Part shown: one piece after another, positions 54,291 to 62,504 of the stretch
Layout of the letters: each line of letters begins with the position of its first letter
Position numbering within the stretch: position 1 is the stretch's first letter
Assembly (NCBI RefSeq): GCF_946415235.1
Contig: NZ_CAMKRR010000008.1
Coordinates: 1 to 64,000 of the forward strand
DNA: 64,000 nucleotides
Direction: 5' to 3'
DNA from: an uncultured Ruminococcus sp.
GTDB lineage: Bacteria; Bacillota; Clostridia; Oscillospirales; Ruminococcaceae
Made by a program: the position numbers and the translations under genes
The notes under the pieces: generated by a model
Seen by the model: the letters and a program-made list of their open reading frames with translations, nothing else
Told to the model about the DNA's origin: nothing
The model's database searches: none

Positions 54291-57167
54291 ATGAACAAAG
54301 AAGAAAGACGGGCCGCTGCGCGACTTAAGCTGGAGCGGTTCAGAAAAGGCAAATTTTACCGTATAATGTACGAAAAGGGTGTGCTGTACTTTATACTTTC
54401 GTTTCTTATCCCGTTTTCCGTAATGCTTTACGCATTCGGTATGTTCGGGGTACACCCCTTTGGAAACAGACAGATACTCGTAGTCGATCTGTGGCATCAG
54501 TACTACCCCTTTTTCAGGGTAGTCCACGAGAAGCTGGTAAGCGGCGGCTCGTTCCTGTATTCATGGGAAAACGGACTGGGCACCAACTTCCTGTCGCTGA
54601 TATCCTACTATGCGGCAAGTCCGCTGAACTGGCTGTCGGTATTCTTCGGAAACGGCGGAGAAAGGGACGCGCTCACATTCATACTTGCGGCAAAGATAGG
54701 CTTTGCGGGAGCGTTTTTCAGCACCTTCCTGAGATATACCTACAGGCGCAGGGATTTCTCCTTATGTATGTTCTCCGTGGCATATGCCCTTTGCAGCTAT
54801 ACTCTTGGGTATTACTGGAACGTAATGTGGTTCGATACAGTGGCGCTGTTCCCGCTGGCAATGCTCGGCATAGTGATGCTGTGCCGCGAGGGCAGGTGGA
54901 AGGTATTCACCTTTTCACTGGCGCTTTCGCTGATCGCCAATTATTATATCGGCTATTTCACCTGCTTATTCTCCATACTTATGTTTGCGGCGGCAGGCAT
55001 AATCGAATGCAGGGGCATAAAGGACTGGTTCAGAAAGCTTCTGCTGATGATACGTTCATCGGCGCTCGGAATAGGTCTGGGAGCTTTCATGCTGCTTCCT
55101 GCATATTTCGGTCTGAAACTGACCTACAGCGTAAACAACACCATGCCGAAGGAAATATCCTTCTATGAGGACTGGAAGAAGATATTCGGAAATCTGCTCT
55201 CGTATAACGAGCCCACGAAGGTGGACGGACTTCCCAACTTTGCCTGCGGAATGCTGGCGGTGATGCTCTTCGGAGTGTTCATCTTCGCATTCGGCATAAA
55301 GATAAGGGAAAAGATAGCCGCTGTGATAATGCTTGGCGTCATAGCCGTGAGCTGTAATATGAACATCCTCAATTACATATGGCACGGCTTCCATTTCACC
55401 AATCAGATACCCTACCGTTTCGCGTTCATATTCAGCTTTGTGCTTGCTGCGGCAGCGTTCAGAGCCTATGACGTCATACTGAAACGGGGCGTAAAGATAT
55501 ATCATCTTGTACTCATGCTCATTGCGCCTTCGGCTGTCTTTGTGCTGTATAAAATATCTCAGGGCGTTGACTATAAATTCGAGGGCGCCATAAAGAGCTC
55601 GGCTATCATTGCGGGAGCGTTCTGGCTGATATTCGTGGCGGCGAAGATGTTCCCGTTCAAAAGCCAGAGGATAAGGAACATCATGATGACCTTTGTGCTT
55701 GCGGCGGCAATGTTCAGCGAGTTCATAAGCAATGCACAGATAGGCGTCCAGACAGTGGATACCACAAGCTACAGCGATTATCCTGCCACCTATGACGAGG
55801 TCGAGGCTCTTCTCGGCTACGAGAGGAAAAATGACAAGTCGCCGTTCTACAGGACGGAAATGACACAGACATATACTCTCAATGACAGTGCGCTGTACGG
55901 CTACTACGGACTTTCACAGTTCTCATCGGCGGCAAACGTATCTGTGACCACATTGTGCAAGAGACTGGGGCTTTACGCCTCAGAGGCGGGAAACCGTTAC
56001 TACTACAGAACATCAACGCCTGTTGTGAATTCCATTTTCGGCATAAAATACCTTGTCAAAAAGGGCGGAGTGCTCAATTCCGAGGACTGGGTGTTCGAGG
56101 ACATTCACACCTCGGGAAGCTCAACGCTTTACAAAAACCGCTATCCGCTGTCTCTCGGCTTTATGGTTAGCGATGAAGTGCTCAATATGGAGGACAGCAA
56201 TTCGGCAAATCCCTTTGAGTATCAGAACAGCCTTGTCCGCTGCCTTACAGGCATGGACGGTGAGTTCTTCGTGCCGCAGCCCGTGGCTCTTGCAGAGTAC
56301 GACGGCCTTGACGTATCCAAGAACGGCTACGGCAACTATACCTTCCAGAACAATACGGAGGAGGCAACGGGAAGCGTCACATATACCTACGATTGCATCG
56401 ACGGCAGCTATATCTACGGCTACGCCAACGGTTCGGGCGGTACCTGCGACCACCTTGAGATAAAGTGCGGCGAGGATACCATCGACTCGGGAAAGCTCAT
56501 CGAAAGCTACCCTATTGTATTCCCCATGGGCAACGGACAGGCAGGAGACGAATCCACTGTAAAAATAACCTCCAGTGAGAAGCACAAGTCGGGAAACTTC
56601 AAGCTCATGGTATATTCTGTTAAAAAGGAACGCTTTGAGGAGTTCTACAGCGAGCTTGCCGACGAGCAGCTTGATATAACCGAATTCAGCGACCGAAAGA
56701 TAAAAGGCAGGGTCAATGCAAAGAAGGACGGAGTGCTCTATCTGTCGATACCCTACGAAAAGGGCTGGAAAGTGTATATCGACGGCGAAAGAGCCGAGAC
56801 CTTCAAGGTATTGCAGGCAATGCTCGGCGTAAAGGTGGACAGCGGTGAGCATAATATCAGGATAGAGTATACTCCCGAGGGCTTTGCTCTTGGGGTTACA
56901 ATAACATTTCTCAGCGCGGCGCTTGTGATATTTTTCGTACTTGCCGAAAGAAAGCGCAGACTGCTGAGAAGAGAGCAGGCGGCAGCATTGCAGCGTGAAG
57001 CTGCGGATGATGACGCGGCTTCGACCTACAGGCAGGGAGCTGCCATATACGACCAGTTCGGTATCCCGAGACCCGAGGACCATATCGGCAGAGTCGAGGA
57101 CTCTGAGATAGTTCTTTACGACGGCAGGGATACGGCTGAAAAGGGGGCGGGAGATGCGGAACCTTAA
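54291..57167 (+). CDS. yfhO: YfhO-family membrane protein
   Basis: It has 958 residues from ATG 54291, which has AGAGG upstream. An N-terminal charged tail precedes about a dozen membrane helices. The first outside loop has the family motif QILVVDLWHQYYPFFRVVHEKL and then SWENGLGTNFLSLISYYAASPLN. The large extracytoplasmic C-terminal part ends with a beta domain (YLSIPYEKGWKVYIDGERAETFKVLQAMLGVKVDSGEHNIRIEY), one last helix and an acidic cytosolic tail. YfhO proteins are GT-C-like and have been linked to glycosylation of teichoic acids in other Firmicutes. It overlaps truA by 14 bases. Confidence 0.9.
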   Translation: MNKEERRAAARLKLERFRKGKFYRIMYEKGVLYFILSFLIPFSVMLYAFGMFGVHPFGNRQILVVDLWHQYYPFFRVVHEKLVSGGSFLYSWENGLGTNFLSLISYYAASPLNWLSVFFGNGGERDALTFILAAKIGFAGAFFSTFLRYTYRRRDFSLCMFSVAYALCSYTLGYYWNVMWFDTVALFPLAMLGIVMLCREGRWKVFTFSLALSLIANYYIGYFTCLFSILMFAAAGIIECRGIKDWFRKLLLMIRSSALGIGLGAFMLLPAYFGLKLTYSVNNTMPKEISFYEDWKKIFGNLLSYNEPTKVDGLPNFACGMLAVMLFGVFIFAFGIKIREKIAAVIMLGVIAVSCNMNILNYIWHGFHFTNQIPYRFAFIFSFVLAAAAFRAYDVILKRGVKIYHLVLMLIAPSAVFVLYKISQGVDYKFEGAIKSSAIIAGAFWLIFVAAKMFPFKSQRIRNIMMTFVLAAAMFSEFISNAQIGVQTVDTTSYSDYPATYDEVEALLGYERKNDKSPFYRTEMTQTYTLNDSALYGYYGLSQFSSAANVSVTTLCKRLGLYASEAGNRYYYRTSTPVVNSIFGIKYLVKKGGVLNSEDWVFEDIHTSGSSTLYKNRYPLSLGFMVSDEVLNMEDSNSANPFEYQNSLVRCLTGMDGEFFVPQPVALAEYDGLDVSKNGYGNYTFQNNTEEATGSVTYTYDCIDGSYIYGYANGSGGTCDHLEIKCGEDTIDSGKLIESYPIVFPMGNGQAGDESTVKITSSEKHKSGNFKLMVYSVKKERFEEFYSELADEQLDITEFSDRKIKGRVNAKKDGVLYLSIPYEKGWKVYIDGERAETFKVLQAMLGVKVDSGEHNIRIEYTPEGFALGVTITFLSAALVIFFVLAERKRRLLRREQAAALQREAADDDAASTYRQGAAIYDQFGIPRPEDHIGRVEDSEIVLYDGRDTAEKGAGDAEP

Positions 57168-57915
57168 AGTAACAGCAGCCTACAGAGGCACAAGGTATCA
57201 CGGCTTTCAGCGTCAGAGCAATGCCCTGACGGTGCAGGAGGTGCTTGAGAGCAAGCTCTCGAAGGTGCTCAACGAGCCTGTGACGGTGATCGGCTGTTCA
57301 AGGACAGACACGGGAGTACACGCGAATATGTTCTGTTTCAATGTTAAGACCGAGAGCAAAATAAACTGTCTCGGCTTTTGCAGGGGCGTGAATGGGGAGC
57401 TCCCCGATGATATATCCATTCTCAGCTGCGAGGATGCTCCCCTTGATTTTCATGCAAGATATGACTGCAAGGGAAAGGAGTATATCTATAAAATGCACTG
57501 CAGCGAGTCGAAAAACCCCTTTGCGGCAGATCTTATGCTGCATTACAGGAGAAAATTCGACATTGAGGCTGCGCGGAAAGCAGCAGGTTATCTGGTGGGA
57601 ACTCACGATTTTTCGTCGTTTTGTGCTGACTGTACAAATGTTTCAACCACAGTAAGGACTATTTATTCTTTCAAAATAGAAAATAGTGGAGATTCTGTGA
57701 TAATGCTTGTAAAAGGCAACGGTTTTTTGTATAATATGATTAGGATAATCGCAGGCACTCTTATGGACGTAAGCGAAAAAAGGATAGCTCCCGACGATAT
57801 ACCTGATATACTTGCCGCAAAGGACCGCCTCAGGGCGGGCAGAACGGCTATGGCTCACGGACTGTACCTGAACCGCGTGTTCTACAGCGAGGAAGAGCTT
57901 ATGAAAGAGACATAG
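57154..57915 (+). CDS. truA: tRNA pseudouridine(38-40) synthase
   Basis: This 253-residue synthase modifies the anticodon arm. It has a start LKVTAAYRGTRYHGFQRQ and the catalytic Asp in GCSRTDTGVHA. RYDCKGKEYIYKM and the late FLYNMIRIIAGTLMDV complete the TruA signature. The ATG lies within the end of yfhO after a purine-rich GGGGGCGGGAG stretch, so it depends on translation of that gene. The length is normal. Confidence 0.96.
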   Translation: MRNLKVTAAYRGTRYHGFQRQSNALTVQEVLESKLSKVLNEPVTVIGCSRTDTGVHANMFCFNVKTESKINCLGFCRGVNGELPDDISILSCEDAPLDFHARYDCKGKEYIYKMHCSESKNPFAADLMLHYRRKFDIEAARKAAGYLVGTHDFSSFCADCTNVSTTVRTIYSFKIENSGDSVIMLVKGNGFLYNMIRIIAGTLMDVSEKRIAPDDIPDILAAKDRLRAGRTAMAHGLYLNRVFYSEEELMKET

Positions 57916-57943: not shown

Positions 57944-59116
57944 TTGCCGAAGGTTTACGACGCCGAAGATATCGTCGATCAGAAAAATCGGATGAAGCGG
58001 CGAAAGCGACAGCGGCAGTTTATTTGCATACTGCTGGCAGCAATTATCGGAGTAGGTCTTTATTTTACTCGCGATAAGTGGTATAATAAATTAAGGGGCA
58101 TAGGAGAACAGTACAGGACTATCGTCAACTCGGGTCAGCTGGCAGAGGGAAACTTCCCTATAGAGGTCAGCGGCGGCGCGGATTATCAGCTTTGCCTTTC
58201 GGGCAAAAGGATGATACTGCTCAGCGATACGTACACCTATTACTATGATACTGACGGCGGACTTTTAAAGAGGCGTCAGCATACATATACGAATACGGTG
58301 CTGCGTACCTCGGGAGGACGTTCCCTGCTTTATGAACAGGGCGGAAATGATCTCAGCGTTGAAAACGAGGATCAGGTCTTCTATACCAAGACTTTCGCAA
58401 AAAACCAGATCTTCTTTGCAAGACTCAGCGAAGAAGGATATACAGCAGTAGTAACTACTTCTGAAAATTACAGCTGTGAACTGGTCGTATATGACAAAAG
58501 GGGTGAGGTCATATACACAAGACAGTGTATCGAAATGGTCAGCGACCTTAGCTTCATTGACGGAAGCAAGGGCTGTGTGCTGAGTTATATCTCAGCGGAG
58601 AACGGCCAGCTCGTTACCAAAGTTCAGAAGATCAGCTTCAGTGAAAAAGACGAACAATGGACATCCCCCGGATTGAACACTTTCGGTCTCAGCGTCTGCG
58701 GCTACGAAAACGGGGCATTCGTACTCGGAATGGACGCCTGCGGATATGTTGACGGCAGCGGTCAGATAAGCTCGTATTACTCATATGACGGCGAATTCGT
58801 CAGCGGCGCAAGTGAGAACGGAAATTCAGCAGTAATAGTTAACAACGAAGACAGAAGAAAATATGTTATGGCTCTTTTCAGCGGCGCTGACGCCGAGGCT
58901 CTTGTTATAGAGCTTGAGGAGCCTTCCATCGATGTAACCATATATGAAGATCTTGCGTACGTAATGTGCCAGGGAAAGATAATGGCTTATGATTTCAGCG
59001 GCGGGCTTCGTTCCGTTGCGGGCGTAAGCGATTCATACACAGGCTTTGTACGCAGTGATGATCATATTTTCCTGAAGGGATATAATAAAATAGATCGTAT
59101 AGATTATGAGAGCTGA
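57944..59116 (+). CDS. DUF5711-like single-pass membrane protein
   Basis: It has 390 residues. A basic N-terminus (KNRMKRRKRQRQ) precedes one membrane helix (FICILLAAIIGVGLYF), and a large extracytoplasmic part follows with repeated beta-blade patterns (LSGKRMILLSDTYTYYYDTDGG, SLLYEQGGNDLSVEN, AYVMCQGKIMAYDFSGG). This suggests a beta-propeller, as in clostridial DUF5711 proteins. The start is TTG 57944 with a near-perfect AAAGGAGGTG five bases upstream. It precedes a CvpA-like membrane protein. The function is unknown. A sensor or envelope scaffold role is a guess. Confidence 0.75.
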   Translation: MPKVYDAEDIVDQKNRMKRRKRQRQFICILLAAIIGVGLYFTRDKWYNKLRGIGEQYRTIVNSGQLAEGNFPIEVSGGADYQLCLSGKRMILLSDTYTYYYDTDGGLLKRRQHTYTNTVLRTSGGRSLLYEQGGNDLSVENEDQVFYTKTFAKNQIFFARLSEEGYTAVVTTSENYSCELVVYDKRGEVIYTRQCIEMVSDLSFIDGSKGCVLSYISAENGQLVTKVQKISFSEKDEQWTSPGLNTFGLSVCGYENGAFVLGMDACGYVDGSGQISSYYSYDGEFVSGASENGNSAVIVNNEDRRKYVMALFSGADAEALVIELEEPSIDVTIYEDLAYVMCQGKIMAYDFSGGLRSVAGVSDSYTGFVRSDDHIFLKGYNKIDRIDYES

Positions 59117-59144: not shown

Positions 59145-59190
59145 AAAGGAGGCAGCGCCTGCGGTATTCCGCAACGGCGCGAAACATATG
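59145..59190 (+). promoter_or_regulatory. Shine-Dalgarno separated from its start codon by a hairpin
   Basis: A full AAAGGAGG (59145-59152) lies 35 bases before ATG 59188, too far for normal initiation. The interval holds GCGCCTGCGG-TATT-CCGCAACGGCGC (59155-59180), two 5-bp stems with a 2-base bulge. Folding it leaves CA plus GAAACAT, nine bases, between the site and the ATG. No in-frame ATG, GTG or TTG lies closer. Confidence 0.6.
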
Positions 59191-60084
59191 GGAGAACAGT
59201 TTTGGTGGTTCTACGACGTCATCGTAGCTGCAGTGGTCCTTATATGTGTATTTTTTACTCTCAGAAAGGGGCTCCTCAGAGCCTCGGCATCCATAGTCGG
59301 TTATATTTTTGCCGTTTTCCTGAGCTTTATGCTGTGCACATCTATTGCGGGAAAGGTAGCCGACAACACATTGTACGGAAGCAATGTGAAAAAGCTCAAT
59401 TTTACTCTGACGGAAAACGATTATGCGGCAGAGCTCTGCTCGCAGATCAACAGCATGGGATATTATATAACCGTTAACCGTGACAAGATTGAGAAGATCT
59501 ATGTCAAGGAAGAGGACGTCGACCATGGAATATACCAATATATCCGGCATATGAACAGCAAGAACCTTGATGACGAGGATACGTTCCTTGTAAAGCTGCA
59601 TGACTGCTATGCAGTATCCGCAAGCAATTTCATATCCAGGAAGCTCAGTCCGTATGCGGCGGAATATGCTGCCGAGCAGATTAGAAAGGATCCGCAGAAA
59701 TTCTGGCAGTTCCTTAAGCTTATGGACGATCAGGACTCAAAGCGTCCCGCTGCCGAATTCCTTGTAAAGAATTATATACAGCAGCCCTACACCACGCTGG
59801 TAAGACTTATAATATACATCATATCATTTGTACTGCTTCTGCTGATATTACTTGCCGTATCTGTCAGCGTTAGCAGGAACGACCATACGGAAAACGGCTT
59901 TATGACGGTATCACTGAGAATAATAGTCGGTATCGGAAAGGCCGCGGCTATAGTGCTTGCAATTGCCGTTATTATAAGACTAAACGTCATAACAGGCAAT
60001 GACAAGATGCTGTTCTTTAACCATGAGGCTATTGACAGGACATATGTCTTTAAATATTTCTATAACTTTATCAAGACATGGTAA
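59188..60084 (+). CDS. CvpA-family membrane protein
   Basis: It has 298 residues. The first helix VIVAAVVLICVFFTLRKGLLRASASIVGYIFAVFLSFML contains the CvpA-like K-G-x-x-R turn. An extracytoplasmic or peripheral stretch of about 120 residues follows (EEDVDHGIYQYIRHMNSKN and FISRKLSPYAAEYAAEQI), then two helices near residues 205-270. CvpA relatives are tied to envelope processes without a defined reaction. The best ribosome site is separated from the ATG by a hairpin (see 59145-59190). Confidence 0.75.
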   Translation: MGEQFWWFYDVIVAAVVLICVFFTLRKGLLRASASIVGYIFAVFLSFMLCTSIAGKVADNTLYGSNVKKLNFTLTENDYAAELCSQINSMGYYITVNRDKIEKIYVKEEDVDHGIYQYIRHMNSKNLDDEDTFLVKLHDCYAVSASNFISRKLSPYAAEYAAEQIRKDPQKFWQFLKLMDDQDSKRPAAEFLVKNYIQQPYTTLVRLIIYIISFVLLLLILLAVSVSVSRNDHTENGFMTVSLRIIVGIGKAAAIVLAIAVIIRLNVITGNDKMLFFNHEAIDRTYVFKYFYNFIKTW

Positions 60085-60155: not shown

Positions 60156-62504
60156 ATGATAATGTGCAGTAAATGCAAAAAAAGACCTGCGGTGGTGTTC
60201 ATCACCTCTGTTCAGGGCAGCGAAAAGAAAAATGAGGGACTCTGCCTTTCATGTGCGAGGGCGCAGAATATCCCGCAGATAAAGGAATATATGGATAAGC
60301 TCGGCATCACCGACGAGGAGCTCGACCAGCTCTCGGATCAGATGCTCGGAATGCTCGACGGAGACAGCTTTGAAATGGGCGGCTCGGGCGTGCTTCCCGA
60401 TTTTATCACAAATATGTTCGGCGGCAGTGACTCAGAAAACGACGGCGGCGAGAAGGGCGGATTTGATCCGAGAAGCCTTTTCGGCGGCAAGAAATCAGAA
60501 GATGACAGTTTTTCGGACAACAAGGACAGAAAGAGCAGTCCCTTCGGACGCAGCAAGGATAAAAAGCAGAAAGAGCCCAAGTTCCTCGGAAGCTACTGCA
60601 CCAACCTTTCACAGAAGGCTGCCGACGGAAAGCTCGACCGTATCATCGGAAGAGATATGGAGATAGACCGGGTTATACAGATACTTTCAAGACGTACAAA
60701 GAACAATCCCTGCCTTATCGGTGAACCGGGCGTAGGCAAGACGGCTATCGCAGAGGGAATAGCTCTGCGTATAAACGAGGGAAATGTTCCCTTCAACCTT
60801 GCAGATAAGAAGCTCTATCTTCTCGACCTTACAGCTCTCGTTGCGGGTACTCAGTTCCGCGGACAGTTCGAGAGCCGTGTAAAAGGACTTGTTGACGAGG
60901 TAAAGCGCGAGGGCAATATCATACTCTTCATCGACGAGGTGCATAACCTTGTGGGCGCAGGAGACTCCGAGGGCTCAATGAACGCTGCAAATATCCTTAA
61001 GCCCGCCCTTTCGAGAGGCGAGGTACAGGTAATAGGCGCGACTACCTTCGGCGAGTACAGAAAGTACATCGAAAAGGACTCTGCCCTTGAAAGACGTTTC
61101 CAGCCCGTTACCGTAAACGAGCCCACTATCGAGGATACAGTCAGTGTCCTTGTGGGTATAAAGCAGTACTACGAGGATTTCCACAGGGTACACATATCCG
61201 ATTACCTTGTAAGAGTCTGCGCTGTGCTCTCCGAGAGATACATCACAGACCGTTTCCTGCCCGATAAAGCCATAGATCTCCTTGATGAGAGCTGTGCATA
61301 CGCTTCCATACGTTCACCCGAGATAGGTGATTACGAGAAGCTTAAAAAGGAAATAAAGGTAATGGAGGAGATGGAAGCCTCCATCTCCGAACAGGAAGAA
61401 ATAGACTACAAGGCTCTTGCAGAGGTCAAGGGCAAGCTCATACACCTTCGCGAGGACGAGGAGGAGCTGAAGAAAAAGGCAGAGAATGTCAATGTTGAGG
61501 AGTCCGACATTACCAAGGTCGTAGAGCGCTGGACAGGTATCCCCGCAAGCAAGATAGCGGAGAACGAATTCCTCAAGATCGCAAGGCTGGACGAAGCCCT
61601 GAAAAAGAGGGTAGTGGGTCAGGAGGAGGCTGTAAGCGTCCTTACAAAGGCTATAAAGCGCACAAGAGTACAGCTCAGCAAGCGCCGCAGACCTGCTTCA
61701 TTCATATTCGTAGGACCTACGGGTGTCGGCAAGACGGAGCTCGTAAAGGTACTTGCGGAGGAGCTCTTTGATTCTCCCGATCCGCTTATCAGACTTGATA
61801 TGACGGAGTATATGGAAAAGCACTCGGTAGCGCGAATGATAGGTTCGCCTCCCGGCTATGTCGGCTATGACGAGGCGGGACAGCTTACGGAAAAGGTACG
61901 CCGCAAGCCTTATTCGGTAATACTTTTCGACGAGATCGAAAAGGCTCACCCTGACGTAATGAATATACTCATGCAGATACTTGACGAGGGCAAGGTGGAC
62001 GACGCTCACGGAAGAACGGTAAACTTTGCGAACACTATCATATGCATGACCTCCAACGCAGGCTCGACTGACAAGAGCATAGGTGTTGGCTTCAACCGTA
62101 CAGAGAACGAGATAACACGCGAAAAGGCAATGAAGGGTCTGAGGGATTTCCTCCGTCCCGAGTTCATCAGCCGTATCGACGAGATAGTTGTATTCAGAGA
62201 CCTCAACAAGGAGAACTATGCCGATATCGCAGCTCTTACTCTCGACGAGATGAAAGAGCCTCTTGCGGAAAAGAACATATCCCTTGAGTATACAAGGGAA
62301 GCTCTTGAGCTTATTGCGGAAAAGGCTTTCGGCAAGTCCTACGGCGCAAGAGATATCCGCCGCGTTATCCGTCAGGAGATAGAAGACAGCATCGCCGATA
62401 TCATTATTGAAAAGGCATCGAGCATAAATAAAATAGTTATATCTGTCAGGGACGGCGCTTTTGCCGTTGAGGGCAGAAAGGAGAATACAGAAAATGAAGC
62501 TTAA
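60156..62504 (+). CDS. clpE: ClpE-type AAA+ unfoldase
   Basis: It has 782 residues. The N-terminus is a zinc finger (MCSKCKK with Cys4 and Cys7, then LCLSC with Cys30 and Cys33) and a Gly/Ser/Asp-rich linker in place of the double Clp-N repeat, as in ClpE rather than ClpC. The first AAA module has GEPGVGKTA and FIDEVHNL. A mid-domain coiled coil ([19 protein letters not shown]) and [11 protein letters not shown] follow. The second module has [10 protein letters not shown] and [12 protein letters not shown]. The IGVGF loop fits ClpP docking. AGGAGG precedes the ATG by nine bases. No CtsR gene or CIRCE is nearby. Confidence 0.9.

Follow-up and report, generated by a model that had tools for sequence, protein, structure and literature searches.

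The start codon of a chromosomal cvpA-like gene in an uncultured Ruminococcus sp., a bacterium, is probably served by a split ("accommodated") ribosome-binding site, a reading to which we give a probability of about 85% from the comparison of sequences. The gene lies in a 64,000-nt stretch of DNA (the window), and its ATG is separated from a strong Shine-Dalgarno sequence (SD) by 35 nt that include a 26-nt hairpin (Table 1). In the proposed mechanism the 30S subunit would pair with AAAGGAGG and the hairpin, starting 2 nt past the SD, would remain folded and looped out; the 35-nt gap would then act like one of about 9 nt, and ATG 59188 would get to the P site. We infer that initiation would take place at this ATG with the hairpin folded. 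Judged from the relatives, the arrangement is kept across much of the genus, with some losses; a cellular gene here keeps a gap of about 34 nt by means of a hairpin absorbing it.

Table 1. Features of the cvpA-like start region and its neighbours, in positions of the window
Feature	Position	Strand	Basis or remark
truA	57154-57915	+	
DUF5711 protein gene, upstream, co-directional	57944-59116	+	
SD AAAGGAGG	59145-59152	+	sequence; genome's own 16S 3' end; kept in relatives
5' linker CA, 2 nt	59153-59154	+	relatives 2.0 +/- 1.1 nt
Hairpin, 26 nt	59155-59180	+	predicted fold, -17.8 kcal/mol; covariation in relatives
Hairpin outer stem	59155-59159 / 59176-59180	+	predicted fold, covariation
Hairpin inner stem	59160-59164 / 59169-59173	+	predicted fold, covariation
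Hairpin loop; 2-nt bulge	59165-59168; 59174-59175	+	predicted fold
3' linker GAAACAT, 7 nt, unpaired	59181-59187	+	A-rich in relatives, 7.6 +/- 1.4 nt
ATG start codon	59188-59190	+	protein homology starts exactly there
cvpA-like gene, 298 aa	59188-60084	+	Pfam Colicin_V PF02674, residues 10-59
Clp-family ATPase gene, downstream of cvpA-like	60156-62504	+	

The SD begins 28 nt after the stop of the DUF5711 gene. Together with the G before it, it reads GAAAGGAGG, the complement of CCUCCUUUC at the 3' end of 16S rRNA; since this end is GGATCACCTCCTTTCCC in the same genome, GAAAGGAGG is able to pair along its full length. The form AAAGGAGG/AAGGGAGG is kept in most Ruminococcus relatives. The in-frame codons from the SD to the ATG are gcg cct gcg gta ttc cgc aac ggc gcg aaa cat, and neither ATG, GTG or TTG nor CTG, ATT, ATC or ATA was found in frame between the two elements of the window. 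Homology to other proteins (MG.QFWWFYDVI) opens at ATG 59188, also in other genera that have an ordinary SD there. The coordinates and the codon check agree with the initial annotation, which had described a full SD 35 bases from the ATG with no closer in-frame start, and the fold of 59155-59180 leaves 2+7 nt, as expected from its claim that 26 bases are removed to give a 9-base spacing. The start codon of a bacterial gene ordinarily lies about 5-10 nt from the SD.

The 35-nt spacer of the window was predicted to fold as ..((((((((((....)))))..)))))....... at -17.8 kcal/mol (z = -3.7), and 1 of 200 shuffles folded as well. In the context from -95 to +45 the predicted probability of the outer five pairs was about 1.0. 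A lone hairpin could be due to chance, but its recurrence in about 45 relatives could not; the observation in the window was confirmed as correct and lies far above chance.

Homologues were found in 57 of the 59 same-genus genomes searched, or near that number, among them strains of R. flavefaciens, and weak matches were present in other genera of the family. Most same-genus loci have a strong SD, then a hairpin, then the ATG with the protein start MG.QFWWFYDVI; in about 45 Ruminococcus relatives the strong SD stands 29-46 nt from this same conserved ATG. The isolate R. flavefaciens 007c (L084) is among the carriers of the hairpin. A set of 43 distinct spacers was picked by the SD motif and a gap of 22-50 nt, with folding ignored. 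All 43 folded better than their own shuffles (mean z -3.8), with a mean energy of -11.8 kcal/mol as against -4.3 kcal/mol for the shuffles, and the effective spacing left outside the hairpin was 9.6 +/- 1.7 nt as compared with 11.3 +/- 7.6 nt in shuffles. In a wider set of 45 loci, for which the presence of a hairpin formed part of the selection, the effective spacing was 9.7 +/- 1.8 nt, hairpin length followed gap length with r = 0.90, and a spread as small as that observed occurred in 0 of 10,000 permutations. Hairpin length thus tracks gap length and the effective spacing stays constant. For the loci L182 and L183 the minimum-energy fold gives a short 3' linker, and an alternative register found by eye (GUA-U-GGCAGU...ACUGUC-UG-UAC) gives 2+7 and 2+9. 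Ordinary spacing is most often 7-8 nt in the 1.26 Mb of Ruminococcus DNA surveyed, and hairpin-less relatives with a recognisable GGAGG carry it 6-10 nt (mean 7.7) from the same ATG. The effective spacing of 9.7 nt is about 2 nt above this ordinary 7.7, a difference for which the helix, by its width, may be responsible.

If an unusual codon near the SD, or a short leader frame running through the hairpin, were the site where translation started, the cvpA ATG could be reached by reinitiation. Such a start might use the out-of-frame CTG 6 nt past the SD, the sole near-start codon close to the SD of the window, and loci L004, L013 and L082 do possess an in-frame ATG or TTG 12-13 nt past the SD. 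However, no start-like codon is common in position or frame among the relatives, many of them have none 3-13 nt past the SD, and protein conservation opens at the ATG. Moreover, an in-frame stop separates SD from ATG in 15 of the 43 relatives that bear the hairpin; this excludes an upstream in-frame start in those relatives, and we regard the reinitiation route as highly improbable. In L013 and L082, both of the R. flavefaciens type, the codon is an in-frame TTG in the hairpin loop, 13 nt past the SD, and is a possible alternative start there.

The initial annotation had named loss of pairing in relatives as grounds for rejecting structure-assisted initiation; this was examined and the pairing held. 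In an alignment of 42 spacers (MAFFT), the outer five pairs were standard in 90% of cells vs 70% in shuffles, and when the partners were slid by 1-3 columns pairing was seen in only 15-56%. Cells changed on both sides numbered 63 vs 23 in shuffles, and the covariation score was 0.73 vs 0.35, a value as high being found in 0 of 500 shuffles. Pairs 1-6, numbered inward from the outermost pair of each hairpin, each show GC, CG, AT and TA; this tally uses pairs derived from the folds, by which complementarity is given by construction and the variety of types is not. When the folds were left aside and each 5' arm was compared with all 42 spacers, the 3' region of its own spacer ranked first as a partner in 24 cases and among the top two in 29. 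The shuffles leave the relatedness among the spacers in place, but relatedness as the explanation of the covariation is disfavoured by the slid control together with the variety of pair types. The comparison strongly supports structure-assisted initiation as the probable function of the hairpin.

In a tree of 88 proteins (FastTree), a branch with support 96 set apart the 25 rows of other genera, none of which has the hairpin. Of the rows within the genus, 45 carry the hairpin and 18 lack it, a distribution that needs 8 changes, at least 5 of them forced by starred branches. The simplest reading is gain within the genus and several losses, the number and direction of which hinge on a quick tree. 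Having been lost several times, the hairpin is not indispensable. Relatives without it mostly have an ordinary SD. In L052, for example, the hairpin is missing and the SD is 6 nt from the ATG, and the upstream DNA is nearly identical to that of the hairpin-bearing L182 and L183. Five hairpin-less rows (L017, L085, L086, L180 and L199) have no obvious SD by the patterns used. One of these, L180 (G011:C123), appears on inspection by eye to retain a hairpin (TGACGC/GTGTCA) beside a degenerate SD and could be a natural intermediate in loss. Because of this apparent hairpin and the rows without an obvious SD, the labels of presence and absence are approximate.

A split ribosome-binding site is recognised by an SD too distant from the start, by a hairpin wholly between the two that leaves a functional spacing, and by conservation of the structure in relatives. 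Here the SD is 35 nt away (29-46 nt in relatives, against the normal peak of 7-8 nt), the hairpin lies wholly within this gap and leaves a functional spacing, and the structure is conserved. A looped-out hairpin would explain the constant spacing, the tracking of lengths, the free choice of stem letters, the position of SD and ATG outside the stem, and the ordinary SD found after loss. The part of the initial annotation that proposed structure-assisted initiation was thus borne out by compensatory change, length covariation and the normal SD after loss, and the part that proposed a translational switch was not, as loops and stems are unconserved, the hairpins range from -6 to -18 kcal/mol, and they are predicted to be folded by default in most species.

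Such a switch would have the hairpin respond to temperature, protein, small RNA or ligand, the folded form being ON and the unfolded form OFF. The geometry permits this, as melting of the stem would bring back the 35-nt gap, and stems at the weak end (-6 to -8 kcal/mol) could respond to conditions. However, the letters of loop, bulge and stem proved unconserved among the hairpins of the relatives, and hence offer no common recognition site; for most loci the hairpin was predicted to be folded at 37 C, with a median P of 0.93 in longer-context folds, the window hairpin, at -17.8 kcal/mol, is very stable, and losses of the hairpin accompany ordinary SDs. A regulated switch is therefore considered quite unlikely. 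Counting against the split-site reading, in single-sequence folds with longer context the outer stem fell below 50% in 5 of 46 loci and the ATG stayed free of pairing only about 43% of the time. In the longer fold CCC and GGG also pair so as to enclose the whole site, an interaction recognisable by eye in none but the closest relatives. An RNA thermometer or SD-sequestering switch was rejected, since neither the SD nor the start is inside the stem, as was a riboswitch or protein-binding leader, as there is no conserved loop and Rfam gave no hit at gathering score in the window. We infer that the split site is probably constitutive, setting the level of the CvpA-like protein with no switch. Control in the folded-ON sense, by which the start would be usable only while the hairpin is folded and melting by heat, a helicase or a small RNA would turn the CvpA-like protein off, appears unlikely; if true, anything opening the stem would turn off a CvpA-like membrane protein.

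Hairpins often have roles in stabilising RNA, in RNase processing or in forming transcript ends, and the hairpin studied here sits in an intergenic gap of a co-directional gene string. If it acted in one of these ways, its effect on spacing would be incidental. Nevertheless, no terminator-like site was called at 59155-59180, and an incidental hairpin need not track the gap (r = 0.90) nor begin about 2 nt past the SD, which makes such a role very unlikely as the explanation. An intrinsic terminator, with a GC-rich stem and a T run, was rejected, the tail being GAAACAT.

Mobile or repeated palindromic elements exist in many bacterial genomes, and one of them could have landed by chance between SD and ATG. 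In contrast, the hairpin is single-copy in its genome even with up to 3 mismatches allowed, a covariance model finds a convincing score at this place only in the genome, and the stem letters vary between species with the pairing kept; the insertion of such an element is hardly credible. The covariance model recovered cvpA loci almost exclusively. Four other places (L091, L108, L114 and L117) were rejected as they look like chance, the ATG opening no long reading frame in any of them; folds were weak at all of them except L114. The variation of the stem letters caused the model to miss several true cvpA hairpins, and the screen is incomplete for this reason. The architecture proved rare when the window and 1.2 Mb from the relative G035 (1.26 Mb together) were scanned directly: an SD preceded the first start by 22-50 nt in 13 places, and in 5 of these there was also a hairpin with an effective spacing of 6-13 nt, as compared with 0-2 for control motifs. 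Only two looked clean: the cvpA start of the window and G035:C1 at about 1,016,571. The cvpA locus of G035 itself was skipped by the scan due to an in-frame TTG in its loop.

No bacterial chromosomal precedent was found in the open-access literature, where the arrangement is described only for T4 phage genes. In T4 gene 38 an intervening hairpin shortens the SD-AUG distance from 22 to 5 nt (PMC3014915), and in gene 25 a hairpin brings 27 nt to 11 nt (Nivinskas 1999; Malys and Nivinskas 2009, reviewed in PMC3014915). Destabilising the intervening structure of these genes lowered initiation, and gene 25 has reporter and DMS data (PMC3014915); the mechanism therefore works in bacteria. As in gene 25, a distant SD would be brought near by a hairpin at an intercistronic junction, and the arrangement is limited to a clade of relatives and absent from more distant ones. 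Unlike gene 25, the cvpA site is on a bacterial chromosome, has a longer gap (35 nt, 29-46 nt in relatives), and shows strong turnover of stem sequence and several losses. Gene 38 shares the hairpin between SD and AUG but is a phage gene, with a shorter gap and a shorter effective spacing. RNA thermometers and SD-sequestering hairpins, such as those of phage homing endonuclease mRNAs, also have a hairpin in the translation initiation region, but in these the SD or AUG is buried within the stem and the effect is repression (PMC3014915), whereas at the cvpA site both elements are outside the stem and the stem would be expected to help. The approximately 45 natural variants and the several losses form a ready panel for studying the way in which the 30S subunit makes room for a helix next to the SD duplex. 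Prediction of start sites from linear SD distance misses such sites.

The second clean place of the scan, on the minus strand of G035:C1 (L158, G035:C1:1000001-1020000, about 16571), has AAAGGAG, a 28-nt gap and a perfect 6-bp stem that leaves 8 nt effective spacing. It precedes a gene for a 399-aa ATPase-like protein and directly follows a sequence resembling, by eye, domain V of a group II intron. In the window, the DNA of the first cvpA-like codons (CAATTCTGGTGGTTTTATGATGTTATC, within 59188-59225) is strikingly conserved in divergent relatives, which protein constraint alone could explain. The Clp-family ATPase encoded at 60156-62504 opens with a CxxC...CxxC motif (MCSKCKKRP...) that by eye looks like an McsA-like zinc finger and not the usual Clp N-domain.
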